From: Candidatus Gastranaerophilales bacterium
GTDB taxonomy: Bacteria; Cyanobacteriota; Vampirovibrionia; Gastranaerophilales; Gastranaerophilaceae
DNA length: 64,000 nt
Direction: 5' to 3'
Assembly: GCA_947630045.1 (NCBI GenBank)
Contig: CANRGC010000008.1
Span: 34,076 to 98,075, forward strand
Part shown: one piece after another, positions 43,202 through 64,000 of the stretch
Layout of the letters: each line of letters begins with the position of its first letter
Position numbering within the stretch: the stretch's first letter is position 1
Translations under genes and position numbers: made by a program
The notes under the pieces: generated by a model
The model's input: the letters and a program-made list of their open reading frames with translations, nothing else
What the model was told of the DNA's origin: nothing
The model's database searches: none

Positions 43202-43235
43202 CCCGATTTTTTAATTTATTTTTTTTAACCAAAAA

Positions 43236-43383
43236 TGCACCATAATCTGACAATATGGTGCATTTAGTCGTTATGTCCAGTATATCCGGCTTTTTCTCAT
43301 GTGTCAATTTGTAAGTGTTATAAAAAAACCGGCCCAAAAGTCTTGCTTTTAGCTAAAGCACCATATTGTCAGAAATTGTTGCA
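43236..43383. promoter_or_regulatory. Candidate invertible promoter segment 1 (inverton 1)
   Basis: Two 26-bp sites face each other at 43236-43261 and 43358-43383, matching at 22 of 26 positions, with a perfect inverted 15-mer (CTGACAATATGGTGC at 43247-43261; its complement at 43358-43372). Each site is itself an imperfect palindrome of half-sites TGCAMCAW and ATGGTGC around an 11-bp core, the layout of a tyrosine-recombinase site. The 96-bp interior holds one strong promoter. It lies upstream of the glycosyltransferase operon (ATG at 43418). The same site family bounds the segment at 53731. Inversion itself is inferred. Confidence 0.75.
43279..43307 (-). promoter_or_regulatory. Strong sigma-70 promoter inside inverton 1, now pointing left
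   Basis: On the minus strand: perfect TTGACA (43302-43307), 17 bp, TATACT (43279-43284). It now fires away from the downstream glycosyltransferase genes and antisense into the acyltransferase. After inversion it would start near 43347 and read into the ATG at 43418. Confidence 0.75.
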
Positions 43384-43417
43384 AAAATGCTGTTTTAAAT
43401 TTTAAGCGAGGGGAAAT

Positions 43418-44818
43418 ATGAACACGGAAGAAAAATATCTGAACGATTTATACAAATTGGCTGAAGACAACAAAATTGATATAGATAAATCTAAAATGAA
43501 AAACTTAAACAGCTATAAAAAAATTTTAAGACTTCATAAGATAATATCAAAATCAAAGATAAATTTTTCAAACATAAAAAAATCAAAAGACAAAAAAACC
43601 GTTTTGTGTATAGAGCCAAACGTTGCGCATGATTTTTTGCTTCCGAGTTTTTATAAATATTTTCATGATTTAGGTTACGAAGTCGACTTCCTTTTATCAG
43701 AAGATTTTGATAAAAAAAGGTGGGACTTTTTTGAACATATTCCAAAAGAAAATTACAGAAAATTTATAGTCCCCTACGCTGTTTTAAATGCCTATATGTC
43801 CCTTGATTGCATTTCGGAATATGACGTTATTATGTTAAACACGGATATTATCTGGGACAAAATGTGGTACAGATTAAATCCTGTGAAAAATTATCTGCAC
43901 TATTTAAAAAATATTTTTAATATTGTTCCAAAAACTAAAAATAAAGTTTTAGAACTCATTGTTCATGTAAATATGGCAAGAACCGAAGATGAAATAAAGG
44001 TTATGCTTGAAAAACATCAGTTTTTAGACGGCAGCCCCATTTTTTCTCTTATCGGATATAAAGGCATTCCGATGTTAAGCGGTCAATATTTCGGAGATGT
44101 TAAAATTACGCCAAAATCACAAGATATATGCAAGTTTATCTCTCTTGGGTATGTAATACCGACTCAAAAAAATCATCACTTACTTATAGAGGCGGCAGAA
44201 AAACTTGTAGAAAACAATATCAAAAATTTTAAAATTATGGTCTTTGACGGGAAAAAGAGCAACAATGTTTTCAATGTTCCTGAACATTTGGCTGAATATT
44301 TTGAAATTTTAGGCGAAATGAAACCGCCTGAATTATTTAACTATATTGAAGAAGCCGACTTCATTACAACCCTGTGGGACAGTCAAAACGATTTTATGCG
44401 GGAAACTTTTGGCAGCGGCACCGGAAGCACAATGAATGCGTTCCAACTCGGCTTTCTAAAACCTGGGTTAATGGAAGACTTTTTTGTAAAACCCATGGGC
44501 TTTAGTGAGGAAAACGTTATTTCATACAAAGGAAACGACTTATATTCGGCAATGAAAAGAGCAATAGAGATGAGCGCTTCGGAATATGATGTTTTACAAA
44601 ATAATTTAGCTAAAGAAGCAAAAAGAAGATACAATCAAACAATAAACGACTTAAAGGAAGTTATCTCAAATAATGAAAAGAAAAAATATAAACGTGTAAT
44701 TATATTTAAAAACGAATTAAAATCATTCTTACAAAAGATATTTTCGACAGGAAACGAAAATAACCATAAACTTATCAGAATTTTAGGCTTTAAAATAAAA
44801 ATAAAAAAAGAAAAATAG
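43418..44818 (+). CDS. GT-B type glycosyltransferase
   Basis: The 466-residue protein has a N-terminal region (TVLCIEPNVAHDFLLPSFYKYFHDLGYEVDF, residues about 62-92) and a C-terminal half with ISLGYVIPTQKNHHLLIEAAEKL, FEILGEMKPPELFNYIEEADFITT and a GSGTGSTMNAFQLGFLKPGL segment, similar in layout to GT4 enzymes. It ends HKLIRILGFKIKIKKEK, a basic motif also found (YRIFGIKIKVKRLA) in the protein at 62816. GAGGGG precedes the ATG. It is the first gene after inverton 1 and should be off in the present orientation. Confidence 0.75.
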   Translation: MNTEEKYLNDLYKLAEDNKIDIDKSKMKNLNSYKKILRLHKIISKSKINFSNIKKSKDKKTVLCIEPNVAHDFLLPSFYKYFHDLGYEVDFLLSEDFDKKRWDFFEHIPKENYRKFIVPYAVLNAYMSLDCISEYDVIMLNTDIIWDKMWYRLNPVKNYLHYLKNIFNIVPKTKNKVLELIVHVNMARTEDEIKVMLEKHQFLDGSPIFSLIGYKGIPMLSGQYFGDVKITPKSQDICKFISLGYVIPTQKNHHLLIEAAEKLVENNIKNFKIMVFDGKKSNNVFNVPEHLAEYFEILGEMKPPELFNYIEEADFITTLWDSQNDFMRETFGSGTGSTMNAFQLGFLKPGLMEDFFVKPMGFSEENVISYKGNDLYSAMKRAIEMSASEYDVLQNNLAKEAKRRYNQTINDLKEVISNNEKKKYKRVIIFKNELKSFLQKIFSTGNENNHKLIRILGFKIKIKKEK

Positions 44819-44881
44819 TTAATAATTTCTTTTTTATTTAAGTTTTATGATAAGATTAAAAAGTTGCAGCGGAGAAATTTT

Positions 44882-45769
44882 ATGCAGGAAAATTTGCCTA
44901 CAATTTTACTTACAGGCGCCACGGGCTACCTTGGCGGATATTTGTTAAACACCTTTTTAAAAGAAGGTTACAACGTTCTTGCAGTTTGCCTGAACCATAG
45001 TGAAAAACTCGAATTTATTTCGGGGGGGGGGGGTAGTTGCGCCAAAATTTATCTCGATACAGATAATTTAGAAGATGTTTTTAAAAATAATAAAATTGAT
45101 TATATAGTTCATACAGCAACTCTGTATGGCAGAAATAATGAAAACTTAAGTAAAATTATACAGGCTAATGTTGAATTCCCCTTAGAAATATTATCTTTAG
45201 CCATTAAATACAATGTAAAAGCATTTATTAATACAAGCACAATATTGGTTAATAATATAAGCACTTATGCCATGACAAAGTGGCAGTTTGCCGAGTGGCT
45301 TGATTTTTATTCGGATAAAATAAAAGTAATAAATTTAAAACTTGACCATTTTTACGGTCCTAAAGATAAACCGGTAAAATTTGTTGCATGGCTTGTTGAA
45401 CAGTTTAAGAACAATGCGGAAAAAATTGATTTAACGGAAGGCTCTCAGACGAGGGATTTTGTTTACATTAAAGATTTAGTTAAGGTATATCTTTGTATTT
45501 TAAACAATATGGAAAGAATTCCAACGGGAAGAATGAATAATTTTGAAATAGGTTCAGGTCATAAAACATCAATAAAAACCTTTGTAAAACTTCTGAAACG
45601 AGAAATGAACAACGAAAAAACAACTCTTAATTTCGGAGCGGTGCCATACAGAAAAAATGAAGTTTTAGATTATGATGTTGATACTACGGCGATAAGTTTG
45701 TTAGGCTGGCATCCCGAATATACAATAGAAAAAGGGATAAAAGACCTTGCATTTGAGGAGGAAAAATAA
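44882..45769 (+). CDS. RfbS/RfbJ-like CDP-3,6-dideoxyhexose 4-reductase (SDR), phase-variable, in frame here
   Basis: The 295-residue extended SDR has TGATGYLGGYLL (residues 13-24), NTSTILV, YAMTKWQFAEWL with the active Tyr and Lys, and DFVYIKDLVKVYL. I compare it to CDP-paratose/abequose synthases, which reduce the 4-keto group made by RfbH; size and neighbours fit, but a general nucleotide-sugar epimerase is possible. The frame opens at a TTG at 44864; the ATG at 44882 has GCGGAG upstream. A 12-G run encodes GGGG near residue 50 and keeps the frame open. It is followed 2 bp later by the RfbE-like gene. Confidence 0.75.
   Translation: MQENLPTILLTGATGYLGGYLLNTFLKEGYNVLAVCLNHSEKLEFISGGGGSCAKIYLDTDNLEDVFKNNKIDYIVHTATLYGRNNENLSKIIQANVEFPLEILSLAIKYNVKAFINTSTILVNNISTYAMTKWQFAEWLDFYSDKIKVINLKLDHFYGPKDKPVKFVAWLVEQFKNNAEKIDLTEGSQTRDFVYIKDLVKVYLCILNNMERIPTGRMNNFEIGSGHKTSIKTFVKLLKREMNNEKTTLNFGAVPYRKNEVLDYDVDTTAISLLGWHPEYTIEKGIKDLAFEEEK
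45022..45033 (+). repeat. Poly-G tract, 12 nt, in the RfbS-like gene (ON length)
   Basis: Twelve G preceded by TTTC. The length is in frame, so the gene is predicted ON. Loss or gain of one G would truncate the protein. Confidence 0.95.
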
Positions 45770-45770
45770 T

Positions 45771-46801
45771 ATGAAGTACATGATTTCGGGGGGGGGGGAT
45801 TTTTAGGCTCAAACATTGCGTCTGAAATATTAAAAAACGGGGATGAATTAATTATTTATGATAATTTATCCAGAATTGGCGGAGAAGATAATCTAAAATG
45901 GCTTAAAAGTTTTGGCGATTTTGAGTTTCATAAAGAAAATACAAATAATTACGAAAAAATATCACAAGTTATAAAAAAGACCATGCCTGATGTTATATAT
46001 CATTTGGCGGGGCAAGTTGCAATGACAACTTCTATTCAAAACCCGAGACTTGATTTTGAAACAAATGTTCTCGGGAGTTTTAATGTTTTGGAGAGTGTAA
46101 GGCAGTTTTCTCCCGAAACAACGGTTGTATATTCTTCTACAAATAAAGTATACGGCGATTTTGAGTATCTTGATTATGAAGAAACAGACAAAAGATATAT
46201 ATGTAAACAATATCCTAAAGGATTTGATGAAAATGTCCGATTAGATTTTCATTCCCCATACGGATGTTCAAAAGGTGCTGCTGACCAATATATGCTAGAT
46301 TGGGCAAGAATATTCGGGCTTAAAACTGTTGTATTCAGACATTCTTCCATGTACGGAGCAAGACAGTTCGGAACATACGATCAAGGCTGGATAAGCTGGT
46401 TTTGTCAAAAGGCTGTTGAAACCAAATATAATAAAGATACAACTTTTACTATTTCGGGTAACGGCAAACAGGTTAGAGATGTCTTGCACGCAGAAGATAT
46501 GATTAAACTGTATTTAAGTGTTCCGAAGTTTATTGATAATGCAAAAGGTAAAGTGTTTAATATCGGAGGAGGAATAAATAACAGTTTATCATTGTTAGAA
46601 TTATTTGATTTTTTAGAGAAAAAACTAAATATAAAATTGAACTATACAAAACTTCCTCCGAGAGAAAGCGACCAAAAAGTTTTTGTTGCCGATATAAAAA
46701 AGGCGCAAGATACCTTTAATTGGCTTCCTAAAGTATCTTATGAAGAAGGCATAACCAAAATGCTTGAATGGGTAGAAAAAACCCAAATGGCTAAAATATA
46801 A
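45771..46801 (+). CDS. rfbE: RfbE-like CDP-paratose 2-epimerase, phase-variable, out of frame here
   Basis: The ATG at 45771 follows GAGGAGG. The start reads MKYMIS then a run of eleven G. With twelve G the protein continues [15 protein letters not shown], the NAD-binding loop, and runs 343 residues to 46801. With eleven G, as here, it stops after [11 protein letters not shown]. Later motifs: [68 protein letters not shown] (active Tyr and Lys), FRHSSMYG. These match CDP-tyvelose (paratose 2-) epimerase, which makes CDP-tyvelose for O-antigen. Confidence 0.87.
45788..45798 (+). repeat. Poly-G tract, 11 nt, in the rfbE-like gene (OFF length)
   Basis: Eleven G preceded by TTTC, seven codons into the gene. 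The tract itself codes the glycine-rich Rossmann loop. In-frame lengths are 9 and 12. Confidence 0.95.
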
Positions 46802-46845
46802 TTAATAAAATAAACAATAAATTTTTTTCATGATAATATAATTTT

Positions 46846-47053
46846 ATGTTTAACGATATATACAAAAACAAAAAGGTATTAGTTACGGGACATACGGGTT
46901 TTAAGGGAAGCTGGCTTTGTATGTGGCTTAAAATGCTTGGAAGTGAAGTATGCGGCTATTCTCTTGCCCCAAACACAGCCCTTTTTATATAGAGATTAGA
47001 CATTAAAAATGCCGGAAGTTGTATTTCAGACTGATACTTTAAAGAGCCGGTAA
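46846..47053 (+). pseudogene. rfbG: Remnant of CDP-glucose 4,6-dehydratase (rfbG)
   Basis: From the ATG at 46846 a 48-residue reading runs VLVTGHTGFKGSWLCMWLKMLG and GYSLAPNT, a near-perfect RfbG N-terminus, then stops at 46992. A second short piece in another frame (MPEVVFQ, around 46999-47020) corresponds to the MKPEVVFHLAAQ region that follows about 45 residues later in RfbG. Most of the gene is deleted. The loss would block CDP-4-keto-6-deoxyglucose supply to RfbH unless an intact copy lies elsewhere. Confidence 0.85.
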
Positions 47054-47076
47054 TACAAATTTTATAAGGAGAAGAG

Positions 47077-48153
47077 ATGAATTCTGTTTTAAAACAAGAT
47101 TTAGAAAAAATTTATACGGATATAAAATCCGAAGCGGGAAAATTCAGCGGTTCCAATATATTTATAACGGGCTGCTGCGGGTTTTTAGGATATTATTTCC
47201 TGCACTTTTTTAACAAATATAAAGAAAATCTTGGTATCAAATCAATCGTTGCCGTAGATAATTTTCAGGTCGGAAAACCTCATTGGCTTGATGAAATAAT
47301 TAAAGAAGGCAAAATTGATTTAAAAGAGTTTGATATTATTGACGGAGATTTGTCTTTAATTGAAAGAGATAAGACAAATTCCTTTGTAATTCACATGGCA
47401 TCAATTGCTTCTCCCGTGTTTTACAGAAAATACCCCATTAAAACAATTGAGGCTAATATATGGGGTTTGAAAAGACTTTTGGATGATTATAAAAACGAAA
47501 GTTTGAGAGGGTTTTTATTCTTTTCAAGTTCGGAAGTATACGGTGACCCTGTTCCCGAATATATACCAACACCTGAAACATACAGGGGAAATGTTAATAC
47601 AATAGGTCCAAGAGCTTGCTATGATGAATCAAAACGTTTCGGAGAAACTATATGCTATGAATATGCTAAAGAATATAATCTGCCGATAATGCTTGCCCGT
47701 CCTTTTAATAATTACGGGCCGGGGATGAAACTTCAAGATAAAAGAGTTCCCGCTGATTTCGCCAAGGCTGTTATCAACAATCAGGATATAGTTATTCTCT
47801 CTGACGGCAAGCCTACAAGAACTTTTTGCTATATTTCTGACGCAATAACGGGATATTTAAAGGTACTTCTCCACGGAAAATTCGATGTATTTAATATAGG
47901 CATAGAAAAACCCGAAATTTCGGTTCTTGAGCTTGCAAATATATATGCAAAAGTTGCAGAAAAATTGCTTAATTATACGGGCAAAGTTCAATATCAAAAA
48001 TCTGAAGAAAATAATTATCTAACGGATAATCCGAACCGAAGATGCCCGATAATTGATAAGGCTAAGGAAAAGTTAAATTATAACCCTAAAGTTTTTGTAG
48101 AAGAAGGGGTAGAAAGATTTCTTCAATATCTTAAAGAGGAGGGTTTAAAATAA
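47077..48153 (+). CDS. NAD-dependent nucleotide-sugar epimerase/decarboxylase (UDP-xylose synthase-like SDR)
   Basis: The 358-residue extended SDR has IFITGCCGFLGYYFL, HMASIASPVFYRKYPIKTIEAN, FFSSSEVYGDPVPEY, ACYDESKRFGETICYEYA (Tyr and Lys) and ARPFNNYGPGM. The PFNxYGPxM and SSSEVYGDP patterns resemble UDP-glucuronate decarboxylases. The next gene is a UDP-glucose-dehydrogenase-family enzyme, which would supply UDP-glucuronate. AAGGAG precedes the ATG; the stop overlaps the next start by one base. An epimerase role is the alternative. Confidence 0.8.
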   Translation: MNSVLKQDLEKIYTDIKSEAGKFSGSNIFITGCCGFLGYYFLHFFNKYKENLGIKSIVAVDNFQVGKPHWLDEIIKEGKIDLKEFDIIDGDLSLIERDKTNSFVIHMASIASPVFYRKYPIKTIEANIWGLKRLLDDYKNESLRGFLFFSSSEVYGDPVPEYIPTPETYRGNVNTIGPRACYDESKRFGETICYEYAKEYNLPIMLARPFNNYGPGMKLQDKRVPADFAKAVINNQDIVILSDGKPTRTFCYISDAITGYLKVLLHGKFDVFNIGIEKPEISVLELANIYAKVAEKLLNYTGKVQYQKSEENNYLTDNPNRRCPIIDKAKEKLNYNPKVFVEEGVERFLQYLKEEGLK

Positions 48154-49403
48154 TGATTACGGTAATAGGTCTTGGCTTTGTTGGTTTAACTACCGCTCTC
48201 GGGTTTAGCGAAAAAGGGCTTAAAGTTTACGGTTATGACATTAATAAAGAAAAAACAGCCCTAATTGCAAGCGGAAAAATTCCGTTTTTTGAAAAAGGCT
48301 TAGATGAAGTTCTTGCTAAAAATCTTAATAAAAATTTTTTAATTGCCCCATCTCTTGAAGAAGCTGTTAAAAATTCAAAAGTTATTATAATGTGTGTGGG
48401 AACTCCATCCGATGATAAAGGAAGGGCAGACTTAACATATATTAAATCTGCGCTTGATTCCATTTTGTCTTCGATTGATAAAAAAGATAAGAAAATTATT
48501 ATAACCAAATCAACAATTCCGCCTTCCACGACAAGAAATGAAATAATTCCTTACATTGAAAAATCGGGCTTTGAAACAGGTAAGGACATTTTTGTTGCAA
48601 ATAACCCCGAATTTTTAAGAGAAGGACATGCCTGGGATGACTTTATTAATCCGGACAGAATTGTTATCGGTACGGATGATGAATATACAAAAACAATAAT
48701 GAGCGAAGTATATTCAAAATTCAGCGTTCCTATCCATTTTGTAACTTTAAACACGGGGGAATTTATAAAATATTTGTCAAACACTTTTTTATCCACCTTA
48801 ATAAGTTATGCAAATGAAATGTCTATAATCGCCGATTCTATCGGAGGAATTGATATAAAAGCGGCATTTAAAATATTTCATGAAGATAAAAGGTGGTTTG
48901 GTAATCCTGCAAATATGCAAACATACGCATATCCGGGGTGCGGTTTTGGCGGTTATTGTCTTCCTAAAGACACACAAGCTCTTGTACAAAAAGCCAAAGA
49001 ATATAATTATGACGCAAAAATACTCGACGGAGTTTTAAAAGTTAATTCTGAAATTAAACCTCACTGGATAGAGAAAATAAAAAAATCAGTTTCCTCTGAT
49101 AAAAATATTGCGATTTTAGGGCTTTCTTTTAAACCCGAATCTGATGATATAAGGCAGACTCCCGCTTTAGAAGTTATAAGATTACTGCTTGAAAACGGAT
49201 ACAAAAATATTATTGCTTATGACCCCATATCAAACGATTTGTTTGATAAAACTTATAAACTTCCGTTAAAATATGCAAAATCTTTAGATGAAGCCGTAAA
49301 TAATTCTGACGCCGTTGTTATTGCAACGGGTTGGAGAGAATTTACGGAAAATAAAAACAAGTTCTGCAAAAAAACTGTTTTTGATTTAAGATATATTCTG
49401 TAG
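48153..49403 (+). CDS. UDP-glucose/GDP-mannose dehydrogenase family enzyme
   Basis: The 416-residue protein has GLGFVGLTTALGFSEKG (NAD loop), IIMCVGTPSDDKGRADL, TKSTIPPSTTRN, NPEFLREGHAW, the catalytic cysteine in FGGYCLPKDT, and LGLSFKPESDDIRQTPALEV. These enzymes oxidise UDP-glucose or a related sugar nucleotide twice to the uronic acid. GGYC replaces the more common GGSC at the active site. Overlap with the upstream decarboxylase-like gene suggests a UDP-GlcA to UDP-xylose route. Confidence 0.9.
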   Translation: MITVIGLGFVGLTTALGFSEKGLKVYGYDINKEKTALIASGKIPFFEKGLDEVLAKNLNKNFLIAPSLEEAVKNSKVIIMCVGTPSDDKGRADLTYIKSALDSILSSIDKKDKKIIITKSTIPPSTTRNEIIPYIEKSGFETGKDIFVANNPEFLREGHAWDDFINPDRIVIGTDDEYTKTIMSEVYSKFSVPIHFVTLNTGEFIKYLSNTFLSTLISYANEMSIIADSIGGIDIKAAFKIFHEDKRWFGNPANMQTYAYPGCGFGGYCLPKDTQALVQKAKEYNYDAKILDGVLKVNSEIKPHWIEKIKKSVSSDKNIAILGLSFKPESDDIRQTPALEVIRLLLENGYKNIIAYDPISNDLFDKTYKLPLKYAKSLDEAVNNSDAVVIATGWREFTENKNKFCKKTVFDLRYIL

Positions 49404-49419
49404 AATTATTGAGGATGTT

Positions 49420-50775
49420 ATGAAAGAAAAGTTATTAAGAAATCTGGTAAAAAAGGCAGCTAAAATTTACTACGATAATATTTATGCAAAGAAAAAAGAG
49501 TTGAAATATCTTCCGCCGTCAGGCAAGTTGCTTGGAGAAGAGGAACTGTTAAATATGATAGACGCCTCACTTGATATGTGGCTTACCACAGGAAGATTTA
49601 ATAACCAATTTGAAGAAGAATTTGCAAAATATTTGGGAGTAAAACATTGTTTAACCGTAAATTCGGGTTCCAGCGCAAATTTAGTTGCACTTTCAGCCTT
49701 AACTTCTTATAAACTTGGAGACAGACAAGTTAAAAAAGGCGACGAAGTTATTTCCGTTGCCGCAGGTTTTCCTACAACAATTAATCCTATTATAATGCTC
49801 GGGCTTGTTCCTGTTTTTGTTGATTGTGAAATCGGAACATGCAATATTGACGTAAGCCGCTTGGAAGAATATATTACCCCTAAAACAAAAGTTATAATGC
49901 TGGCTCATACTATGGGTAATGTTTATAATTTGGAAAAAATACAAGAGCTTTGTAAAAAATATAATTTATGGTTAATAGAAGATAATTGCGACGCCTTAGG
50001 CGCAAGATATAAAAGCAAATTAACGGGAACAATAGGCGATATAGGTACTTTCAGTTTTTATCCCGCTCATTTTATAACAATGGGCGAAGGCGGTGCGGTT
50101 GTTACCAATGACCCGTTACTTAATAAGATTATGAAATCATTTAGAGATTGGGGCAGAGATTGTTGGTGCGAACCGGGGCATGATAATACTTGTAATTGCA
50201 GGTTTGAACAACAATTCGGTAAATTGCCTTTCGGCTATGACCATAAATATGTTTATTCTCATTTGGGATATAATCTTAAAATTACCGATTGGCAAGCCTC
50301 TATTGGTCTTGCGCAATTGAAAAAAGCCGACTCTTTTATTCAAAAACGCAGAGATAATTTCAATTATTTATATCAAAAATTGTCTGACTTAACAGATTAT
50401 TTAATTTTACCTGAAATTGATAAAAATGCTCAGCCGTCATGGTTCGGCTTCTTAATTACCCTAAAAGAAAATTGCAGCTTTACTAAGCAAAATATGGTCG
50501 AATACCTTGAAAAAAACGGTATAGGAACAAGACAACTTTTTGCGGGTAATATTTTAAGGCAACCTTCTTTTGTAGAAAATAAAATTTCTCTCAGAATTAA
50601 TAATTCCGAGTTGCTGCAATCAAATGAATTAACGGAAGAACATTTTAAAATGCTTCCTAACACTGATTACATTATGAATCATACCTTCTGGGTAGGCGTA
50701 TTTCCCGCCCTTAATTCAAAAGATTTGGATAAAACTTCTGAGGTTATTCATAAATTTATTGAGGAAAATAAATAA
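49420..50775 (+). CDS. rfbH: CDP-4-keto-6-deoxy-D-glucose 3-dehydrase (RfbH/E1), PMP and [2Fe-2S] dependent
   Basis: RfbH removes the C3 hydroxyl of CDP-4-keto-6-deoxyglucose, the step that makes 3,6-dideoxyhexoses. The 451-residue aminotransferase-fold protein has His217 in FSFYPAHFITMGEGG where PLP enzymes have lysine, the marker of E1. Cysteines at 190, 248, 250 and 258 give C-X57-C-X-C-X7-C, exactly the spacing of the E1 [2Fe-2S] cluster. The E3-type reductase partner is not in the window. It links the rfbS- and rfbE-like genes into one pathway despite the broken rfbG. Confidence 0.95.
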   Translation: MKEKLLRNLVKKAAKIYYDNIYAKKKELKYLPPSGKLLGEEELLNMIDASLDMWLTTGRFNNQFEEEFAKYLGVKHCLTVNSGSSANLVALSALTSYKLGDRQVKKGDEVISVAAGFPTTINPIIMLGLVPVFVDCEIGTCNIDVSRLEEYITPKTKVIMLAHTMGNVYNLEKIQELCKKYNLWLIEDNCDALGARYKSKLTGTIGDIGTFSFYPAHFITMGEGGAVVTNDPLLNKIMKSFRDWGRDCWCEPGHDNTCNCRFEQQFGKLPFGYDHKYVYSHLGYNLKITDWQASIGLAQLKKADSFIQKRRDNFNYLYQKLSDLTDYLILPEIDKNAQPSWFGFLITLKENCSFTKQNMVEYLEKNGIGTRQLFAGNILRQPSFVENKISLRINNSELLQSNELTEEHFKMLPNTDYIMNHTFWVGVFPALNSKDLDKTSEVIHKFIEENK

Positions 50776-51959
50776 TGAGCACTGTTTTAGAGAAAGGCAG
50801 CGCCCTTGTGAATAAGATATACGACAGTATATCGAGAATGGATGTCTTTAATTTTATACGAGGGGTTGCGCTTCTTTGTGTAATCGGCTTCCATACACTC
50901 TGTGTAATTCAGCCGACATACCCTGATATTAAAGTTCCATGGATATTTATAACTCCGGCATGGTATGCAATGTGGGCTTTCTTTTTTCTTTCCGGATATT
51001 TATTGGGAAAAGGGTTTTTTAACGGAAAATATGAAAAAATTTCAACCTTTTATATCTCAAGAGCAATAAGAATAGTCCCTGTTTATCTTTTCTTTTTATT
51101 GGTTCTTTTCCTTTTCTATAAGCCGCTTTGGTTTATAAACAACCTAAAAACGCTCTATTTTCTTTTAACTTTTACATATAACGGGTGGCTAATGCCTTCA
51201 ATTACAGGGGTTGGCGCAACTTGGTTTATATCTACAATTGTGCAATTATACGCTTTTGCGCCTTTGGTATATAAGTTTGGTTTGGCTAAGGTCGCAAAAG
51301 ACAGAGAGAGAGAGAAGGGAAAATATCTCACAATTATTTTGTTTGTCCTTATTGCGCTTGGACTTATATGGCGCCTTTTAACAGATTTATTTGACCTTGA
51401 CTATCTGATATACTCATATTCGCCCGCATTTGCAAACGCAGATTTATTTTTTGGGGGAATGGTTATGAGCGGACTTACTAAAGACAGTTATGATACCCCT
51501 TTCAAAAAATATGTAAGAAAGCTTTCCATGTTTGCTTTCCTTGGGCTTATAGTATGCTTCACCGTTCCTGACATTAGAATTTCTTGGTGGATGTATCAAT
51601 ATCTATACCCCACTTTAGCTTTGGTTAGTTTATCGCTTGTCGTTTATTCATATGACACAAAAGACAAAAGAAAGCCCGACAAATTAACCTTTTCAAGCAT
51701 TGTAAAAAACCCGCTCAGGTTTGTTGAATATATCGGGACAATTTCTTTCACTTTTTATTTATACCATTCAAACTTTCTTGAAACATTTATGAAACTGTTT
51801 AAAGACCCCGCATTTCCGATTGTGGTCAAAGACGAATATCTCTATTGGCTGGTTTACATTTCAATGTTTATTGCGGCAACAATCTGGTCCGGAATACTGC
51901 AACGCTTGCTTGAAGCGCCGCTAAACTCACTTAGGGCAAAATTTATTCAAAAGCAATAA
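50775..51959 (+). CDS. Acyltransferase-3 family O-acyltransferase (OafA-like)
   Basis: The 394-residue integral membrane protein has about ten membrane segments and the family motifs FNFIRGVALLCVIGFHTL (catalytic His region), FFFLSGYLLGKGFF, RAIRIVPVYLF and FTFYLYHSNFLE. Such proteins acetylate or acylate O-antigen and capsule sugars. Start overlaps the rfbH stop by one base. A six-fold AG repeat (51303-51314) sits in a cytoplasmic loop coding RERE and could be a weak slippage site. Confidence 0.88.
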   Translation: MSTVLEKGSALVNKIYDSISRMDVFNFIRGVALLCVIGFHTLCVIQPTYPDIKVPWIFITPAWYAMWAFFFLSGYLLGKGFFNGKYEKISTFYISRAIRIVPVYLFFLLVLFLFYKPLWFINNLKTLYFLLTFTYNGWLMPSITGVGATWFISTIVQLYAFAPLVYKFGLAKVAKDREREKGKYLTIILFVLIALGLIWRLLTDLFDLDYLIYSYSPAFANADLFFGGMVMSGLTKDSYDTPFKKYVRKLSMFAFLGLIVCFTVPDIRISWWMYQYLYPTLALVSLSLVVYSYDTKDKRKPDKLTFSSIVKNPLRFVEYIGTISFTFYLYHSNFLETFMKLFKDPAFPIVVKDEYLYWLVYISMFIAATIWSGILQRLLEAPLNSLRAKFIQKQ

Positions 51960-51978
51960 TTAGATAACCTGATTTTAA

Positions 51979-52008
51979 GGGGGATTTGCATATAAAAGCA
52001 ATTCCCCC
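51979..52008. terminator. G/C-rich hairpin between convergent genes
   Basis: Stem GGGGGATTTGC/GCAATTCCCCC (one mismatch) between the acyltransferase and recombinase ends. No T-run follows, so it is a weak terminator call. Confidence 0.45.
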
Positions 52009-52030
52009 TCAATCATAGCAAAACATTTTA

Positions 52031-52576
52031 TTAAAGTTCAAAATTTTTATAGCTTACATCAATTTCATCCTGTTCTATTCCGAGATATCTTAGCGTGATT
52101 TTTTGGTTGCTGTGGTTGAAAATTTTTTGCAGAATAACGGCGTCTTTAAACTGTTGATAATGGTGATACCCGAAAGATTTTCTCATTGTATGCGTTCCGA
52201 CATTGACGCCTATTCCGACATTTTTACATGCAAGATTTATAAACCTGTAAACCTGACAGCGGTTAATTCTTTTTCCTCTTTTTCCGAGAAACAAAGGCTC
52301 ATTGGGGTTTCTTTCTTTTATATAGCTGTTTAGCGCCAATTTAAGTTTTTTATTTATCAGAAATTTTTTATGCTTTCCCGTCTTTTTTTCAAAAATTTCA
52401 ATATGGGTTCTGTTTAATACATCCGAGACGTTAAGGCTTATTATATCTGAAATTCTAAGCCCCGAATTAACCCCCAGAACCCAAATCATTCTGTCCCTTT
52501 TGTTGCGGCATTTCAAAAAGTTCTCAATTTGAAGAATTTGAGATTTGTTTTTAATTGGTTCAACTAAATGTTTCAT
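52031..52576 (-). CDS. Small tyrosine recombinase of FimB/FimE size, candidate promoter invertase
   Basis: The 181-residue protein is a minimal tyrosine-recombinase catalytic domain without the N-terminal core-binding domain of Xer or phage integrases, the size of FimB and FimE. All active-site residues are present: R41 (SGLRISD), a beta-hairpin lysine at about K66, H129 and R132 (HTMRKSF), H155 (FNHSNQ) and Tyr164 (TLRYLGI). It lies 47 bp after neuB on the same strand and 1.2 kb from inverton 2. AAGGAG precedes the ATG but is inside a stem-loop. No phage or conjugation genes are near, which favours a regulatory invertase. Confidence 0.85.
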   Translation of the reverse strand: MKHLVEPIKNKSQILQIENFLKCRNKRDRMIWVLGVNSGLRISDIISLNVSDVLNRTHIEIFEKKTGKHKKFLINKKLKLALNSYIKERNPNEPLFLGKRGKRINRCQVYRFINLACKNVGIGVNVGTHTMRKSFGYHHYQQFKDAVILQKIFNHSNQKITLRYLGIEQDEIDVSYKNFEL

Positions 52577-52623: not shown

Positions 52624-53712
52624 TTAAACTTCTAGACCACGTTCATAAATTTTATCTTTAAGAGATTGATTGTAAGCATAAGGCGAATCAATGTCGTCAA
52701 TCATTATGGGGGCGTCTTTTTTAATGTCACTTAAAAGCACTTCGCCTCTCATAAGCTCACGGCAAGAAATTTGCCCCTTTTGAAGCGGAATTGCAAGATA
52801 AACATCATCATCCGAAATTGACTCACCCGCCTTGAAATCACGCTTTGCATAAACGCCCCTGACTAAAGCGTCAAGATATTTTGTTTCTTTGAAATCTGCG
52901 ACTTTTTTGTATCCTGCGGGCGCTCCGCATATTTCTTTTACTTTATGATAAGCTTTTATCCACCTGTCTAAATCTTCAGGCAGCGAACAATACGGGCTTA
53001 CCGCAACATTATTATAATCAATATCAATATGGCGCTCAAAGGTTCTTGCCCCTTTTGCATAAGCAATATACATCGGAATTTCTATATCTTTATTGTATTC
53101 ATGAGTTGAAAAACCGATTACATGGTTTGGATATCTGTTTTTGAGAAAATCAATTTGATTTAATTCCAATTCATTTTTTTCGGACGGATACTTTGAAATA
53201 CAATGATTTATAGCTAAAGGAATATTTCTGTTTTCAAAAAACGTTACCAAATCGTCTATATCTTTTAGAGATGAGCCGCCCGTTGAAACAATAACAGGCT
53301 TTCTTGTCTTTGCGATTTTTTCTATCAAAACCCAATCATTAATATCAGATGAGGCAATTTTTATAATTTGCACGCCCAAATTAACGCAAGTATCAACAGA
53401 TTTTTCATCAAACGGGGTGGACATTGTAATACATCCCGATTTTCTTATTGCGTCAATCAAAATGCCGTATTCATCATCCGTCATTTTTGTTGCAAGGGTT
53501 TTTTTAATATATCTGATATCATCACGGTTTTTAAAATCTTTATGGATAAAATGATCAACATCTCTGAATTGAAGTTTTATAGCGGCTTTAATGTTGTTAA
53601 ATCGCACCACTCTTGAAAAATCGGTTATGATTTTTTTGCCCCTTTCTATATCGCCCCAGTGGTTATTTGCAAGTTCAAGCACGAATAAATCTTCAAAAAT
53701 GTTGTTTTTCAT
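52624..53712 (-). CDS. NeuB-family sialic/legionaminic-type acid synthase with SAF domain
   Basis: NeuB enzymes join PEP to an amino sugar to make nine-carbon 2-keto acids. This one has ELANNHWGDIERGKKII, AAIKLQFRDVDHF, STPFDEKSVDTC, IKIASSDINDWVLIEKIA, VIVSTGGSSLKDID, NHCISKYPSEKNELEL, IGFSTHEY and GARTFERHIDID, then a C-terminal SAF antifreeze-like domain (GVYAKRDFKAGESISDDDVYL). The frame opens at 53748 inside the repeat; the ATG at 53712 (MKNNIFEDL) with a GGGGG ribosome-binding site is preferred (362 residues). The promoter inside inverton 2 currently points at it. Exact substrate unknown. Confidence 0.87.
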   Translation of the reverse strand: MKNNIFEDLFVLELANNHWGDIERGKKIITDFSRVVRFNNIKAAIKLQFRDVDHFIHKDFKNRDDIRYIKKTLATKMTDDEYGILIDAIRKSGCITMSTPFDEKSVDTCVNLGVQIIKIASSDINDWVLIEKIAKTRKPVIVSTGGSSLKDIDDLVTFFENRNIPLAINHCISKYPSEKNELELNQIDFLKNRYPNHVIGFSTHEYNKDIEIPMYIAYAKGARTFERHIDIDYNNVAVSPYCSLPEDLDRWIKAYHKVKEICGAPAGYKKVADFKETKYLDALVRGVYAKRDFKAGESISDDDVYLAIPLQKGQISCRELMRGEVLLSDIKKDAPIMIDDIDSPYAYNQSLKDKIYERGLEV

Positions 53713-53730
53713 ACATAAGCCCCCAAATTT

Positions 53731-53921
53731 TGCAACAAAATGTATCATTTTGGTGCAATTTTATCTTTGTTAATAATATCATAAAAACCAAATTTTAGTG
53801 TGTCATGCTCACTATCTTTATTTATTTGTTAACCGAAAATAAAACGGTGCTTATATACAAAGTGCCTTAATAATGCCGAAAATCAGACCTGAGTTGCACC
53901 AAAATGATACAAAATGGGTAA
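53731..53921. promoter_or_regulatory. Candidate invertible promoter segment 2 (inverton 2)
   Basis: A perfect inverted 18-mer, TGTATCATTTTGGTGCAA at 53741-53758 and its complement at 53894-53911, bounds 135 bp between the divergent neuB and aldolase genes. The full left site (53731-53756) starts TGCAACAA and ends TGGTGC over 26 bp, the same length and ends as the inverton 1 sites (19 of 26 identical to its right site). The right site (53896-53921) keeps the inner half but has a degenerate outer half. The interior carries one good promoter. Flipping would move transcription from neuB-recombinase to the aldolase operon. Confidence 0.75.
53778..53806 (-). promoter_or_regulatory. Sigma-70 promoter inside inverton 2, now pointing to neuB and the recombinase
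   Basis: Minus strand: ATGACA (53801-53806), 17 bp, TATGAT (53778-53783). No plus-strand promoter of similar quality is visible in the segment. It shares the TGACACA context with the inverton 1 promoter. After inversion it would start near 53880, 47 nt before the aldolase ATG. Confidence 0.7.
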
Positions 53922-53926
53922 AACTT

Positions 53927-54758
53927 ATGAACGATTTAGAAAAAAAGATGACAGACACGCTTATTGACCTTAAAGAAAATCACTCTGTGTGCGGAATTAA
54001 GGCAGAATTTGAAGCGGAAGGAACAAGGCTTGAAGAAGCTTTAAGATTAAAAGAAATTGTAACAAAAGCGGGGCTTGATTTAACAATTAAAATCGGCGGC
54101 TGCGAAGCAATAAAAGACATGTTTGACGCAAAAGTTATCGGGGTCGGAACAATCGTTGCACCTATGATTGAAACCGCATATGCAATGAAAAAATTTGTAA
54201 ATGCGGCAAGGTTTGTATTCTCCCCCCCCCCGAACGAAAACGCTTATAGGACAAGGGGGTGTAAAATTTCTTATCAATATTGAAACAGTAACAGGATTTA
54301 AAAATCTTGATGACATTATAAATACAAACGAATTTGCAGAAGTTTCAGGCATAGTGCTTGGCAGAGTCGACATGACAGGCTCAATGGGCTTAACAAGAGA
54401 AGATATTAACTCTGATGAAATTTTTGATATAGCAAATAAAATGTCTTTAAAAATGGCTGAATTGAAGAAAGATATGGTAATTGGCGGCGGAGTTTCGGCT
54501 CATTCATTACCGTTATTTAAAAAACTTCCTTATCTTTCAAGATTTGAAACAAGAAAAGTCATATTTAATGCCCAAAAAGCACTTGAAGGAAACAAGGCGG
54601 AAAGCGGAATATTAAAAGCTGTCGGTTTTGAATTGATGTGGCTTAAAAATAAACGGGATTTTTACGGCGTTATTTTTGAAGAAGACAGACAAAGAATAGA
54701 AATGCTTGAAGCAAGGTATAAAAGTTTAATTGAAAAAGCCGGAGGTCTGTACGCTTAA
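53927..54758 (+). CDS. HpcH/HpaI-type aldolase, copy 1, phase-variable, out of frame here
   Basis: The ATG at 53927 (MNDLEKKMTDTL) matches the start of copy 2; the frame from 53873 is rejected. The first part has ICGIKAEFEAEG-like CGIKAEFEAEG, LTIKIGGCEAIKDMFDAK and VAPMIETAYAMKKF (metal-binding Glu/His-region of the HpcH/HpaI/citrate-lyase-beta TIM barrel). A run of ten C (54222-54231) then shifts the frame to a stop at 54283. With nine or twelve C it continues into FLINIETVTGF, GIVLGRVDMTGSMGL, VIGGGVSAHSLPLF and FETRKVIFNAQKALEG to 54758, 276 residues. Its first 184 bp of shared coding are identical to copy 2. Confidence 0.85.
54222..54231 (+). repeat. Poly-C tract, 10 nt, in aldolase copy 1 (OFF length)
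   Basis: Ten C; on the complementary strand the G-run is preceded by TTC like the other tracts. In-frame lengths 9 and 12. Confidence 0.95.
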
Positions 54759-54807
54759 ATAAAACTTTCCAATGATGAAATTTCTGTAAAAAAGAAAAGG
54801 AGAAGAA

Positions 54808-55626
54808 ATGAATTCATTGGAAAAAAAGATGACAGACACGCTTATTGACCTTAAAGAAAATCACTCTGTGTGCGGAATTAAGGCAGAATTTGAAGCGGAA
54901 GGAACAAGGCTTGAAGAAGCTTTAAGATTAAAAGAAATTGTAACAAAAGCGGGGCTTGATTTAACAATTAAAATCGGCGGCTGCGAAGCAATAAAAGACA
55001 TGTATGACGCAAAAGCAATCGGGGTAAGCACTATTGTTGCGCCGATGATTGAGTCGCCTTATGCTGCAAAAAAGTATATTCAGGCGGTTGACAGAGTTTT
55101 TAATGAAGACGAAAGATTAAAAATCAAATTTTTAATAAATATAGAAACAAAATATGGCTTTAATTATTTGGAAGAAATTTTAACAAGCGATTTTTCAAAG
55201 AAAATATCCGGAATTGTGCTTGGAAGAACAGACATGACAGGTTCGCTTCATATGTCAAAAGACGATATTAACAGTGAAGTGATTTTAAATTATGCAAAGA
55301 AAATTGCAGACTTGACCTTGAAATATAATAAAGAATTTGTAATCGGCGGGGGAGTTTCAGCCGATTCGCTTCCGTTTTTTAACAAAATTCAAAAAAACGC
55401 CCTTTCAAGATTTGAAACAAGAAAAGTCATTTTTAATGCGAAAGAGGCACTTAAAAATGAACATATCTCAAAAGGAATTTTAAAAGCTGTCGGATTTGAA
55501 TTAATGTGGCTAAAAAACAAACGTGAGTTTTATGGTATGATATTTGAAGAAGACAACGAAAGAATTACCGTTTTAAAGAAAAGATATAAAACTTCAATTC
55601 AAGAAGCCGGCGGCATTTGTGATTAA
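54808..55626 (+). CDS. HpcH/HpaI-type aldolase, copy 2 (intact)
   Basis: The 272-residue protein is the intact paralogue: CGIKAEFEAEGTRLEEAL, LTIKIGGCEAIKDMYDAK, VAPMIESPYAAKKY, IKFLINIETKYGFNYLEE, GIVLGRTDMTGSLHM, VIGGGVSADSLPFF, FETRKVIFNAKEAL, VGFELMWLKNK. The AAAGGAGAAGAA leader is strong. In place of the poly-C stretch of copy 1 it has RVFNEDERLK and no homopolymer, so this copy cannot switch by slippage. The family cleaves or makes 2-keto acid aldols from pyruvate; with NeuB and a TPP enzyme beside it, a role in a keto-sugar of the glycan is likely. Confidence 0.85.
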   Translation: MNSLEKKMTDTLIDLKENHSVCGIKAEFEAEGTRLEEALRLKEIVTKAGLDLTIKIGGCEAIKDMYDAKAIGVSTIVAPMIESPYAAKKYIQAVDRVFNEDERLKIKFLINIETKYGFNYLEEILTSDFSKKISGIVLGRTDMTGSLHMSKDDINSEVILNYAKKIADLTLKYNKEFVIGGGVSADSLPFFNKIQKNALSRFETRKVIFNAKEALKNEHISKGILKAVGFELMWLKNKREFYGMIFEEDNERITVLKKRYKTSIQEAGGICD

Positions 55627-55671
55627 AACTTCGGGTGGATTTTTATGCAAACAAACAAAAAAGAAGAAGAA

Positions 55672-56460
55672 ATGAATTCCTTTCAAAAGGATATGTTATC
55701 AATTCTGTTTGACTTAAAAGAAAATCACCATATGACAGGTATTAAAGCAGAAATTCAAACGGAATGTATCACAGAAAAAGACATCCTTCTTTTAAAGAAT
55801 TTAGCTCAAAAAACAAAAACTGATTTAACAATTAAAATCGGCGGCTGTGACGCCATAAAAGACATATATGACACAAAAACAATCGGGGCAAACTCAATTG
55901 TTGTGCCTATGGTTGAATCTTGTTATGCGGCAGAAAAATTTATTAAAACGGCAAAGCCGGTTTTAAACACGGGAATAAATAAGGTTAAATTTTTTATAAA
56001 TATTGAAACAATAAGCGGGTTTAACTGTTTGGAAGAAATTTTAAAAAGCGATTTTTCAAATGAAATCTGCGGGGTTGTTTTTGGCAGAGGAGATATGACA
56101 GGTTCGCTTAAAATCTCTAAAGACGAGGTTGACAGTGAAATAATTTTAAACTATGCAAAAAAAATTGAAGATTTAACCTTGAAATATAATAAAGAATTTA
56201 TAATAGGCGGGGGTGTCACCACAAATTCGCTTTCATTTTTTAAAAAACTGCCGCTTGTTTCAAAATTTGAAACAAGAAAAATAATTTTTGACGCTAAAGC
56301 TGCACTGTCAGATAAAAAGGCTGATATTGGAATTATAAAAGCGGTAAAATTTGAGCTTTTATGGCTGGAAAACAAAAAAAATATCTATGGTAAAATTAAA
56401 AACGAAGAAGAATTAAGAATAAAAACACTTAAATCAAGGTGTTATAATTCTATAGTTTAA
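55672..56460 (+). CDS. HpcH/HpaI-type aldolase, copy 3 (diverged)
   Basis: The 262-residue protein is a third tandem paralogue: TGIKAEIQTECI, LTIKIGGCDAIKDIYDTK, VPMVESCYAAEKF, FFINIETISGFNCLEE, GVVFGRGDMTGSLKI, IIGGGVTTNSLSFF, FETRKIIFDAKAAL. The open frame starts at 55645, but the ATG at 55672 (MNSFQKDML) aligns with the starts of the other copies and its upstream A/G-rich leader is homologous to theirs. It lacks the near-identical block shared by copies 1 and 2. Confidence 0.82.
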   Translation: MNSFQKDMLSILFDLKENHHMTGIKAEIQTECITEKDILLLKNLAQKTKTDLTIKIGGCDAIKDIYDTKTIGANSIVVPMVESCYAAEKFIKTAKPVLNTGINKVKFFINIETISGFNCLEEILKSDFSNEICGVVFGRGDMTGSLKISKDEVDSEIILNYAKKIEDLTLKYNKEFIIGGGVTTNSLSFFKKLPLVSKFETRKIIFDAKAALSDKKADIGIIKAVKFELLWLENKKNIYGKIKNEEELRIKTLKSRCYNSIV

Positions 56461-56478
56461 AATATTTTGGGGTTTAAA

Positions 56479-58242
56479 ATGGGAAAAATAAAATTATCAG
56501 ATTACATTGCAAAAAGATTAAAAGAAAAATATAACGTTGACCGCTTTTTTATGGTATCGGGCGGCGGCGCAATGCACTTAAATGACAGCCTCGGAAGATA
56601 TATTCCATACACCGCATGTCACCATGAACAGGCATGTTCCATTGCGGCGGAAGGATATGCGAGAGTTAATGAAAAACTTGCCGTCGTTAATATTACAACA
56701 GGCCCCGGAGGGTTGAATTGCTTAAACGGAGTTTTTGGCGAATGGACAGACTCTGTTCCCGTGTTATATATTTCAGGACAGGTTAAATTTCAAACGACAA
56801 TGGCTTCATGCCCGAATATTCCCTTAAGACAGCTTGGCGATCAGGAAGTTGACATAATTTCCGTGGTAAAACCTTTGACTAAATATGCAAAAATGGTAAC
56901 CGAACCCGATGAAATTAAATATCATATTGATAAGGCAATATATGAAGCCACAACGGGCAGATTTGGACCCGTCTGGCTTGATATTCCGATGAATGTTCAA
57001 GCGGCAATTATTGAAGAAGACGACTTGAAGGAATTTGCTCCGCCAAAACCGCCTGTTTATGAACTTAAAATTGATGAAACGATTAATTGTCTTAAAAAGG
57101 CAAAACGTCCCGTTATAATAGCAGGTCACGGAATAAGACTTTCCAAACAGAAAGATAATTTTCTTAAGCTCACAGAAAAGCTCAATATTCCGGTATTAAC
57201 CACTCTTAACGGATATGACGCAATTGAAGAAGAAAACCCCTCATATATAGGAAGAATTGGAACAATCGGTCAAAGAGCGGGCAATTTTGCGCTTCAAAAT
57301 GCTGATTTACTCTTGTGTCTCGGCACAAGAAACAATATAAGACAGGTTAGCTACAACTGGGAAAATTTTGCGAAGAAGGCTTTTAAAATTGTTGTTGACA
57401 TTGATAAAGCCGAGCTTGATAAGCCGCTTGTAAAGCCTGATTTAAAAATTCAGGCAGATTTAGCCGAATATATTCCTTCTCTGTTAAATGCCGCAGGTTC
57501 CCTTAAAGTCGATGAAAGCTGGCTTAGCTTTTGTCAAAATTTAAGACAAAAATATTCTAAACTTGAACCCGAACAAAAAGAAGATATTATTGAGCCTTAT
57601 CACTTCACAAAAACGCTGTATGAATGTTTAAAGGGGGATGAAACGGTTGTTCTTGCAAACGGTTCGGCTCTGGTTTGCACTTTTCAAACCGCACAGGTAA
57701 AGAAAAATCAAAATTATATAGGGAACTCCGGTAACGCTTCAATGGGATACGGGCTTTGCGCCGCAATAGGAGCAAGTTATCAGGCAAAAAACGTTGTCTG
57801 TGTCGAGGGGGATGGCTCAATTATGATGAATATTCAAGAGCTTCAAACGATTTCATACAACAAACTTCCGATTAAACTTTTTATTATAAATAACAACGCT
57901 TACTCCTCAATCAGACAAACACAAAGAAACTTCTTTAACGGACATATGACAGGTTCGGGCGTTGACAGCGGAGTCAGTGTTCCCGATTTTGTTGAAGTCG
58001 GAAAAGCGTTTGGCATTAAAGCCCGCAAAATTTCTGACCCGAAAACGATGAAAGAAGAAATTATAAAAGTTTTGGAAGAAAAAGGTCCAATCTTGTGCGA
58101 AGTTATGGTTGAACAGGAATATAGCTTTATTCCGAAACTTTCTTCAAGAAAACTTGACGACGGAACAATGATTTCAGCTTCGCTTGAAGATATGTATCCG
58201 TTTTTAGACAGAAAAGAATTTGAAGCAAATATGCTAGATTAA
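56479..58242 (+). CDS. Thiamine-pyrophosphate-dependent enzyme, acetolactate-synthase-like
   Basis: The protein has the three-domain TPP layout: PYR domain with the catalytic Glu in CHHEQACSIAAEGYAR and ITTGPGGLNCLNGVFGEW; a central Rossmann-like domain (RPVIIAGHGIRLS, RIGTIGQRAGNFALQNADLLLCLG); and the PP domain with VEGDGSIMMNIQELQTI then IINNNAYSSIRQTQ (GDG...NN motif). Length about 587 residues from the ATG at 56479; an in-frame TTG at 56467 is rejected. Such enzymes in glycan loci make acyloins or branched or keto sugars. It ends the plus-strand run after inverton 2. Confidence 0.88.
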   Translation: MGKIKLSDYIAKRLKEKYNVDRFFMVSGGGAMHLNDSLGRYIPYTACHHEQACSIAAEGYARVNEKLAVVNITTGPGGLNCLNGVFGEWTDSVPVLYISGQVKFQTTMASCPNIPLRQLGDQEVDIISVVKPLTKYAKMVTEPDEIKYHIDKAIYEATTGRFGPVWLDIPMNVQAAIIEEDDLKEFAPPKPPVYELKIDETINCLKKAKRPVIIAGHGIRLSKQKDNFLKLTEKLNIPVLTTLNGYDAIEEENPSYIGRIGTIGQRAGNFALQNADLLLCLGTRNNIRQVSYNWENFAKKAFKIVVDIDKAELDKPLVKPDLKIQADLAEYIPSLLNAAGSLKVDESWLSFCQNLRQKYSKLEPEQKEDIIEPYHFTKTLYECLKGDETVVLANGSALVCTFQTAQVKKNQNYIGNSGNASMGYGLCAAIGASYQAKNVVCVEGDGSIMMNIQELQTISYNKLPIKLFIINNNAYSSIRQTQRNFFNGHMTGSGVDSGVSVPDFVEVGKAFGIKARKISDPKTMKEEIIKVLEEKGPILCEVMVEQEYSFIPKLSSRKLDDGTMISASLEDMYPFLDRKEFEANMLD

Positions 58243-63418: not shown

Positions 63419-64000
63419 TCATTTGATAGTGTCATATATTTCTCCAATCTCTCTATAACCGTCCATAAACGCTTGGTCTGACCACAAATAATCCCATTTG
63501 CCAAATCTGCCTATAGTTCTTATCCCTATAGAGTTTAGGTAATCAATAATTACTTTTCTTGATTCATAAATGTCAGAATTAAAGATTATATTGGCATATT
63601 CTTCAAATCTGATGTCTGAAAATTCTATATCTTCTCTGTTACAAATTCCCGTTTTTATAACCGCTTCAACCGTATTATCAAGTATTTCCCTCTCCGTCTT
63701 ATCAAGTTTTGACTTATTTGAAAAATAAATTTCAGCCTGAAGTGAGCTTTTACCGCTTGGAACATTTTTAGGCGTTTTTAAATGAGGGAAATAAATTCGT
63801 GAAGCCAAAATTTCTTCATCGTAAATATAATTCCATAAGCCTTTTGTATTAATTATTTTATTAAATCCTATTGATACCATATAACCTTTAGTCCACCTTA
63901 ACTTTTCTGTCGCCTTTTTTATCGGGGGGGGGGGGTAAATTAAACAAGAGACAATATCAGGTAAAGGCATGCTTGAAATTAACCAATCATAGCTTTCAAC
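63419..64000 (-). CDS. FAD-dependent amine-oxidase/UDP-galactopyranose-mutase-like oxidoreductase (5' part beyond right edge), phase-variable, in frame here
   Basis: The frame is open from the right edge (VESYDWLISSMPLPDIV) to the stop at 63419, 193 residues. It contains LIYPPPPIKKATEKLRW, YMVSIGFNKIINTKGLWNYIYDEE, RIYFPHLKTPKNVPSGKSSLQAEIY and a C-terminal GIRTIGRFGKWDYLWSDQAFMDGY, the last strand and FAD-binding tail (GRFGxWxYxWSDQA) seen in FAD oxidoreductases of glycan loci. The PPPP is coded by a run of twelve C (G on the plus strand). The missing part should hold the N-terminal FAD loop. Confidence 0.82.
   Translation of the reverse strand, partial: VESYDWLISSMPLPDIVSCLIYPPPPIKKATEKLRWTKGYMVSIGFNKIINTKGLWNYIYDEEILASRIYFPHLKTPKNVPSGKSSLQAEIYFSNKSKLDKTEREILDNTVEAVIKTGICNREDIEFSDIRFEEYANIIFNSDIYESRKVIIDYLNSIGIRTIGRFGKWDYLWSDQAFMDGYREIGEIYDTIK
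63924..63935 (-). repeat. Poly-C tract (minus strand), 12 nt, in the right-edge oxidoreductase gene (ON length)
   Basis: Twelve G on the plus strand, preceded by ATC. The present length keeps the frame open on both sides. Confidence 0.95.

Follow-up and report, generated by a model that had tools for sequence, protein, structure and literature searches.

We propose that a short segment lying between two divergent operons in a sugar gene cluster of a Candidatus Gastranaerophilales bacterium (53741-53911) is quite probably flipped by a recombinase encoded behind neuB, which would redirect a single promoter between a neuB-recombinase operon and an aldolase-TPP operon. The segment, here called inverton 2, was studied in a stretch of 64,000 nucleotides (the window; contig C8:34076-98075) from a genome of 1.70 Mb in 29 contigs, and features are given by their positions in the window (Table 1). 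Several features can be read directly from the DNA: the repeats with their matching 7-bp spacers, a promoter-like site on one side only, a recombinase gene linked to the segment, and short distances to both start codons. We are highly confident that inverton 2 is a real invertible promoter and consider a two-way output rather likely; strict self-gating of the recombinase seems doubtful.

Table 1. Positions of the features discussed in the text, numbered from the first nucleotide of the window.
Feature	Position	Strand	Details
Inverton 1	43236-43383		Same half-site type as inverton 2; spacer TCTGACA/TGTCAGA; 16-bp perfect arms, 96 bp between
Promoter-like site in inverton 1	43279-43307	-	TTGACA-N17-TATACT; faces away from the 43418 gene
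RfbH	49420-50775	+	NF011936, 681.5 bits, above the equivalog cut-off of 423
Stem-loop	51970-52015		Lies where the acyltransferase and recombinase genes converge; may act as a terminator against read-through
Short tyrosine recombinase, 181 aa	52031-52576	-	Second gene of the neuB operon; PF00589, 85.7 bits
NeuB-family synthase with SAF domain	52624-53712	-	First gene of the minus-strand operon; PF03102, 146.1 bits; PF08666, 22.1 bits
Left recombination site	53730-53758		Outer half TTGCAACAAAA, spacer TGTATCA, inner half TTTTGGTGCAA
Inverton 2, predicted invertible segment	53741-53911		Two 18-bp arms and 135-bp loop, 171 bp in total
Promoter-like site in inverton 2	53778-53806	-	ATGACA-N17-TATGAT; faces neuB; -35 at 53806-53801, -10 at 53783-53778
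Right recombination site	53894-53922		Inner half TTGCACCAAAA, spacer TGATACA (inverted copy), outer half AAATGGGTAAA
First HpcH/HpaI aldolase paralogue	53927-54758	+	Frame interrupted at C10 tract 54222-54231
Second HpcH/HpaI aldolase, intact	54808-55626	+	PF03328, 35.7 bits
Third HpcH/HpaI aldolase, intact	55645-56460	+	PF03328, 29.2 bits
Acetolactate-synthase-like TPP enzyme	56467-58242	+	Last gene of the plus-strand operon; PF02776, PF00205, PF02775
C/G runs, length 10-12, within 23 kb	40745-40754, 45022-45033, 45788-45798, 54222-54231, 63924-63935		

The arms of inverton 2 (53741-53758 and 53894-53911) match perfectly across 18 bp and enclose 135 bp, as a sequence-only reading of this DNA had described. 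At a separation of 60 to 600 bp, the window has one pair of perfect arms of at least 18 bp and two pairs of at least 16 bp; among 60 Markov sequences as long as the window, none had the former and 2 had the latter (mean, 0.03). Elsewhere in the genome, the 18-mer was found in no place at up to two mismatches and in five places at three. Each arm is made up of a 7-bp spacer and the 11-bp inner half-site of a tyrosine-recombinase-type site (TTGCACCAAAA-7 bp-TTTTGGTGCAA), which is the composition expected for a tyrosine-recombinase crossover. The features that define an inverton are present: an intergenic pair of inverted repeats around an internal promoter-like site, half-sites with identical inverted spacers, of which the right outer half-site, AAATGGGTAAA, is degenerate, and a tyrosine recombinase (PF00589) encoded nearby. 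The recombinase would bind TTGCACCAAAA half-sites in pairs and exchange strands within the 7-bp spacer, and inversion would leave the outer half-sites in place.

The promoter-like site that the sequence-only reading had described as facing neuB was found on the minus strand and is sigma-70-like. Using our own weight matrix with E. coli-like weights, we obtained a score of 9.3 for the minus strand of the loop and at best 4.3 for the plus strand; base shuffles of the loop reached 9.3 in 4 of 200 cases and 4.3 in 193 of 200. Therefore, no comparable promoter faces the aldolases, as had been claimed. A score of at least 9.3 is reached by 41 sites on the two strands of the 64 kb, so the neuB-facing promoter alone is unexceptional. 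No promoter-like site scoring above 5 was detected between arm and start codon on either side. The start codons of neuB and of the first aldolase, which we corrected from the earlier reading, are best placed just outside the repeats at 53712 and 53927, leaving 28 bp to the left repeat and 15 bp to the right one. Inversion of the segment (x to 107652-x) would move the -10 box to 53869-53874, which is about 50 bases upstream of the first codon of the aldolase. The geometry and the one-sided promoter agree with the two-way toggle proposed in the sequence-only reading, as a predicted output. As assembled, the segment would likely drive expression of neuB and the recombinase but of neither the aldolases nor the TPP enzyme; a flip would reverse this.

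The recombinase encoded by the second gene of the neuB operon is the probable invertase for inverton 2. As a query against its own genome it returned two other matches only, both longer proteins (28% and 25% identical), and a protein search found a recombinase 98% identical to it. Residues 22-170 aligned to solved Xer proteins, a span that includes the R, K, HxxR, H and Y residues which we take to be catalytic. Scores fell below the cut-offs of the FimB/FimE-type DNA invertase models PRK09871 and PRK09870 (46.7 versus 222 and 43.7 versus 221 bits) and of the XerA, XerC and XerD equivalogs (98 versus 220, 70.1 versus 335.15 and 71.9 versus 329.6 bits). The putative neuB product is assignable at the level of the NeuB superfamily only (PF03102). 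N-acetylneuraminate synthase and pseudaminate synthase were both rejected as its identity at the equivalog level, with 138.1 bits against a cut-off of 399.65 for TIGR03569 (NnaB equivalog) and 126.1 bits against 340.25 for TIGR03586 (PseI equivalog). The TPP enzyme in the opposite arm scored 339.4 bits against a cut-off of 538.35 for the acetolactate synthase large subunit (TIGR00118) and has one other match in the genome, 31% identical.

A second element of the same construction, inverton 1, is located upstream of the 43418-44818 gene. Each of the two loops contains one clear promoter-like site, on a single strand, and that of inverton 1 is the top-scoring site of the whole 64 kb on both strands; its direction gives inverton 1 an apparent OFF state for the 43418 gene. 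The full site pattern, with a free spacer, matched perfectly in two places in the 1.70-Mb genome, namely, the left sites of invertons 1 and 2, a result that is partly built in because the pattern was derived from these left sites. At three mismatches it matched in 77 places and the reversed pattern in 27, and the right site of inverton 1 departs from it by two mismatches. The recombinase gene lies about 1.2 kb from inverton 2 and 8.6 kb from the near edge of inverton 1, and the same enzyme likely serves, and would flip, both. The spacers are identical within each pair and different between the two elements; therefore, each element is expected to flip on its own.

Inverton 2 is known from one assembly and in one orientation, and we searched for the flipped segment and for the same site class elsewhere. 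The exact 18-mer had one match in viral contigs, without any neighboring genes. A search of the genus with the window DNA matched four of nine genomes, including our own; the matches in the others were to other elements of the class and none was an orthologous neuB element. At up to one mismatch, the site pattern occurred in 2, 7, 1, 0, 1, 14, 0, 144 and 1 places in genomes G000 (our own) to G008, and the reversed pattern was found in none of these nine. The best recombinase of G007, the genome with 144 places, is 67% identical to that of the window, and twelve stretches of G007 were fetched (loci L208-L219, L076 cited). The G007 sites form pairs 143-144 bp apart with inverted TNNNNNA spacers and adjoin open reading frames of about 323 aa; PF07963, the motif for N-terminal methylation, was detected in all three of those tested. 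A prepilin-like start was located no more than 450 bp away from 29 of 31 pairs. The promoter, taken as TTGAAC-N17-TATATT and variants in loops judged by eye, points away from the nearest prepilin-like start in 28 of the 29 oriented elements and is reversed, facing the start, in one. A prepilin start is found on one side only in 25 of the 29. Four elements lie between two divergent prepilin starts (L212:15259-15429, L210:9190-9359, L216:1494-1663 and L217:6889-7059), so that "away" from the nearer start means towards the other; these resemble inverton 2 in their two-way layout.

Genome-wide, the promoter-end pattern of G007 gave 95 matches, which were counted by hand; 21 were dropped (20 with opposite ends or unclear and 1, C15:43728, unclassifiable) and 74 were kept. 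The gene-distal outer half-site is abutted in 72 of the 74 and the gene-proximal one in 2, with gene adjacency checked within the fetched stretches and at the 2 gene-facing elements. In both of the latter, a prepilin start lies 23-25 bp beyond the faced site. G007 holds elements built like those of the window in both states, and the occurrence of both orientations indicates that the site class inverts in nature. The genome looks like that of an organism with a very large phase-variable pilin repertoire of which few members are on. The G007 prepilin elements are like those of the window in half-site type, 7-bp TNNNNNA spacers, a promoter near the site end and a related recombinase in the genome, but mostly serve one prepilin gene each and number about 74 copies rather than 2. 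Five genus-mates (G002, G003, G004, G006 and G008) have a recombinase of the window's family and zero to one site, and G001 (85% complete) has seven sites and no such recombinase at an E value of 1e-20, indicating that the enzyme and the site class are not strictly linked. In G001 and G005 we also observed a second inverted-repeat family, CTTTTAAAATCATCTGTC, with copies 111-247 bp apart (L013, L015, L018, L020, L021, L022 and L084). This family was set aside; the two loops scored were G/C-richer and had no clear promoter. The original claim of an invertible promoter at inverton 2 is strongly supported by the site anatomy, the linked recombinase, the half-sites of inverton 1 and the visible inversion of this site class in G007.

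Other explanations were weighed against this reading. The segment could act one-way, turning only neuB and the recombinase ON and OFF, with the aldolase operon transcribed from elsewhere, by antisense read-through or from internal promoters. The one-sided position of most G007 elements would fit such a switch, as would plus-strand promoter-like sites antisense to neuB (7.6 and 7.5) and before the TPP gene (7.0). However, no fixed plus-strand site scores as high as the invertible one, and the right repeat lies so near the aldolase start, at 15 bp, that a one-way switch is unlikely in our judgment. Transcription from the plus-strand sugar cluster (39457-51959) might run on, antisense, into the aldolases, with the stem-loop at 51970-52015 in between; by separating that cluster from the recombinase gene, the stem-loop also argues against the one-way switch. 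The region 51940-52050 folds at -22 kcal/mol (z, -3.24), and the stem-loop is without a long U-run and was missing from the terminator scan.

The sites might instead be a relic that formerly recombined, leaving the segment fixed with neuB on by the degenerate right outer half-site. The departure of AAATGGGTAAA from the TTTTGGTGCAA type and the single orientation in a single assembly are in keeping with this, yet the arms are still matched perfectly, the recombinase frame is open and its presumed catalytic positions align. Moreover, the outer half-sites of G007 vary as well (GATTGG, AATTGG and TTTTGG, which vary less than AAATGGGTAAA does) in a genome that has both orientations. We therefore regard a relic as very improbable. 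Less credible still is an ordinary divergent operator-promoter region in which the repeat binds a regulator and nothing inverts. Inverted repeats that flank divergent promoters can, in general, be operators, but two operators would need no 7-bp spacer matched only within its pair, and the same layout recurs at inverton 1 and at dozens of G007 elements in both orientations.

On the preferred reading, a promoter flipped between two operons, the position of the recombinase gene bears on how switching would be controlled. Inverton 2 precedes neuB and the recombinase gene, so that the recombinase gene lies downstream of the promoter; its place in the neuB arm would enable switching mainly in the neuB state. 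The sequence-only reading had gone further and tied the recombinase to the neuB state only. Expression in that state is possible, but the restriction is weakened by a promoter-like site inside neuB, at 52730, which faces the recombinase with a nearly equal score of 9.1 and could feed it in either state. We put forward only tentatively, as one joint proposal, a self-gated memory in which the neuB orientation would be write-enabled, with the recombinase expressed, and the aldolase orientation latched, with the recombinase silenced; the segment would then decide both the sugar arm and whether inverton 1 is rewritable, and the spacers would be addresses that separate the elements.

Relatives place the recombinase in other settings. 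Its family was detected at an E value of at most 1e-20 in 83 of 193 relatives, our own genome counted, and the named relatives nearest by recombinase are mostly Candidatus Gastranaerophilales metagenome assemblies, an order assigned to Melainabacteria. Inverted repeats that scored better than all 30 shuffles lay 3' of the recombinase gene in 10 of 29 relatives' loci and 5' of it in 1 of 31; no such 3' repeat was present in 19 of the 29 loci with enough sequence. The arrangement in the window, with the element upstream of neuB and the recombinase, differs from this and is shared by one relative: a unit of neuB, recombinase and site was identified in a rabbit-gut metagenome-assembled genome (L094, identical in sequence to L250), in which neuB is 92% and the recombinase 83% identical to those of the window and the site, TGCACCAAAA-TGATACG-TTTTGATGCA, lies directly ahead of neuB. 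No partner site was seen in the 208 bp preceding it. Among 51 loci in a scan of genome contigs, one had neuB paired with the recombinase, and it showed no partner site. Of the 26 neuB loci fetched, 19 were scanned; the two in which neuB is followed by a recombinase gene both have the site, which was seen in none of the other 17. The relatives' loci cover only about 1.5 kb on each side, and misses in them are therefore not absences.

The genes controlled by the two arms were also compared with those of relatives. The plus-strand cluster around inverton 2 encodes RfbH and a nucleotide-sugar dehydrogenase. In relatives, aldolase loci have an RfbH-like DegT gene upstream in 12 of 19 cases and a TPP gene downstream in 10 of 19, and neuB loci have a TPP gene downstream in 12 of the 17 scanned without recombinase and an RfbH-like DegT gene upstream in 5 of 18, our own excluded. 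In L254, genes for DegT, an aldolase (48% identical), neuB and TPP enzyme all run in the same direction as one operon. The earlier suggestion that the switch chooses between two carbohydrate pathways is thus not supported, since neuB and aldolase share an RfbH-X-TPP operon module and L254 has both in one operon; because of this shared module, the two arms seem more likely to provide alternative or cooperating steps within a single RfbH-linked sugar module. A possible lead is a connection with branched 3,6-dideoxy sugars, for example yersiniose. The confinement of the TPP gene to the aldolase arm is odd, because neuB is followed by TPP in the 12 of 17 loci mentioned above, and if the arms were exclusive, the neuB state would be without the TPP enzyme encoded at 56467-58242. 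Strong aldolases (at least 58% identity) were found in 27 of 193 genomes, our own excluded, and strong neuB genes (at least 59%) in 9 of 193; a weaker aldolase was present in 3 of these 9. Mutual exclusion of strong aldolase and strong neuB was considered but is not claimed: the overlap was 0 where about 1.3 would be expected by chance, and L254 holds both.

Inversion by tyrosine recombinases is well known, and the capsule loci of Bacteroides are examples of invertible promoters. In the fimS switch of E. coli, a short tyrosine recombinase of about 180-200 aa flips a promoter segment; inverton 2 is similar in its promoter segment and short tyrosine recombinase (181 aa) but differs in that the recombinase falls below both invertase cut-offs, in its predicted two-sided output and in having two distinct-spacer elements per enzyme. 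The Hin switch of Salmonella is run by a serine recombinase and controls one operon with a repressor. As with Hin, a flip of one invertible promoter would change which of two products is made; unlike Hin, inverton 2 would drive the second operon directly from the flipped promoter and has a tyrosine, not a serine, recombinase. E. coli fimS is named together with FimB/FimE in PMC11868660. According to PMC11892184, a study of a 125-strain gut community, invertons of gut bacteria have an intergenic promoter flanked by short inverted repeats, and genes for cell-surface products and for invertases are often close by; the invertases near them are generally "non-regulatable," with one potential exception group. 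Inverton 2 shares the short inverted repeats and the intergenic promoter but is unlike the typical gut inverton in placing one promoter between two divergent operons, with the recombinase downstream of the promoter that it would flip. In PMC11448393, the topic enters only through the citing of a Bacteroidales study. We found no account of invertible promoters in Gastranaerophilales in the literature searched, a scope outside of which two large inverton surveys lie. What is predicted to be new here is an arrangement both two-way and self-gated, and its presence in Gastranaerophilales, where inverton 2 sits in a sugar cluster and where the genus-mate G007 has about 74 elements of an expanded site class. 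If the proposal is true, a single segment that chooses between divergent operons and also governs the recombinase acting on it would form a compact natural latch.

The aldolase arm may be subject to a further kind of variation. Three tandem aldolase paralogues (53927-56460) were found, as the sequence-only reading had stated, but the first is frame-broken at its C10 tract. Paralogues 1 and 2 are about 85% identical across the first 100 residues. C/G runs of at least 9 number ten in the genome (34 overlapping hits), five of them within the window, and a reading frame is interrupted at three of these five (40745, 45788 and 54222) and not at the other two. This suggests slipped-strand variation on top of inversion; homopolymer assembly error is also possible. 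An ATTTC lead-in before the G run is common to 40740-40754, 45017-45033 and 45783-45798, in different genes, and these tracts give the impression of repeated use of a single tract type.
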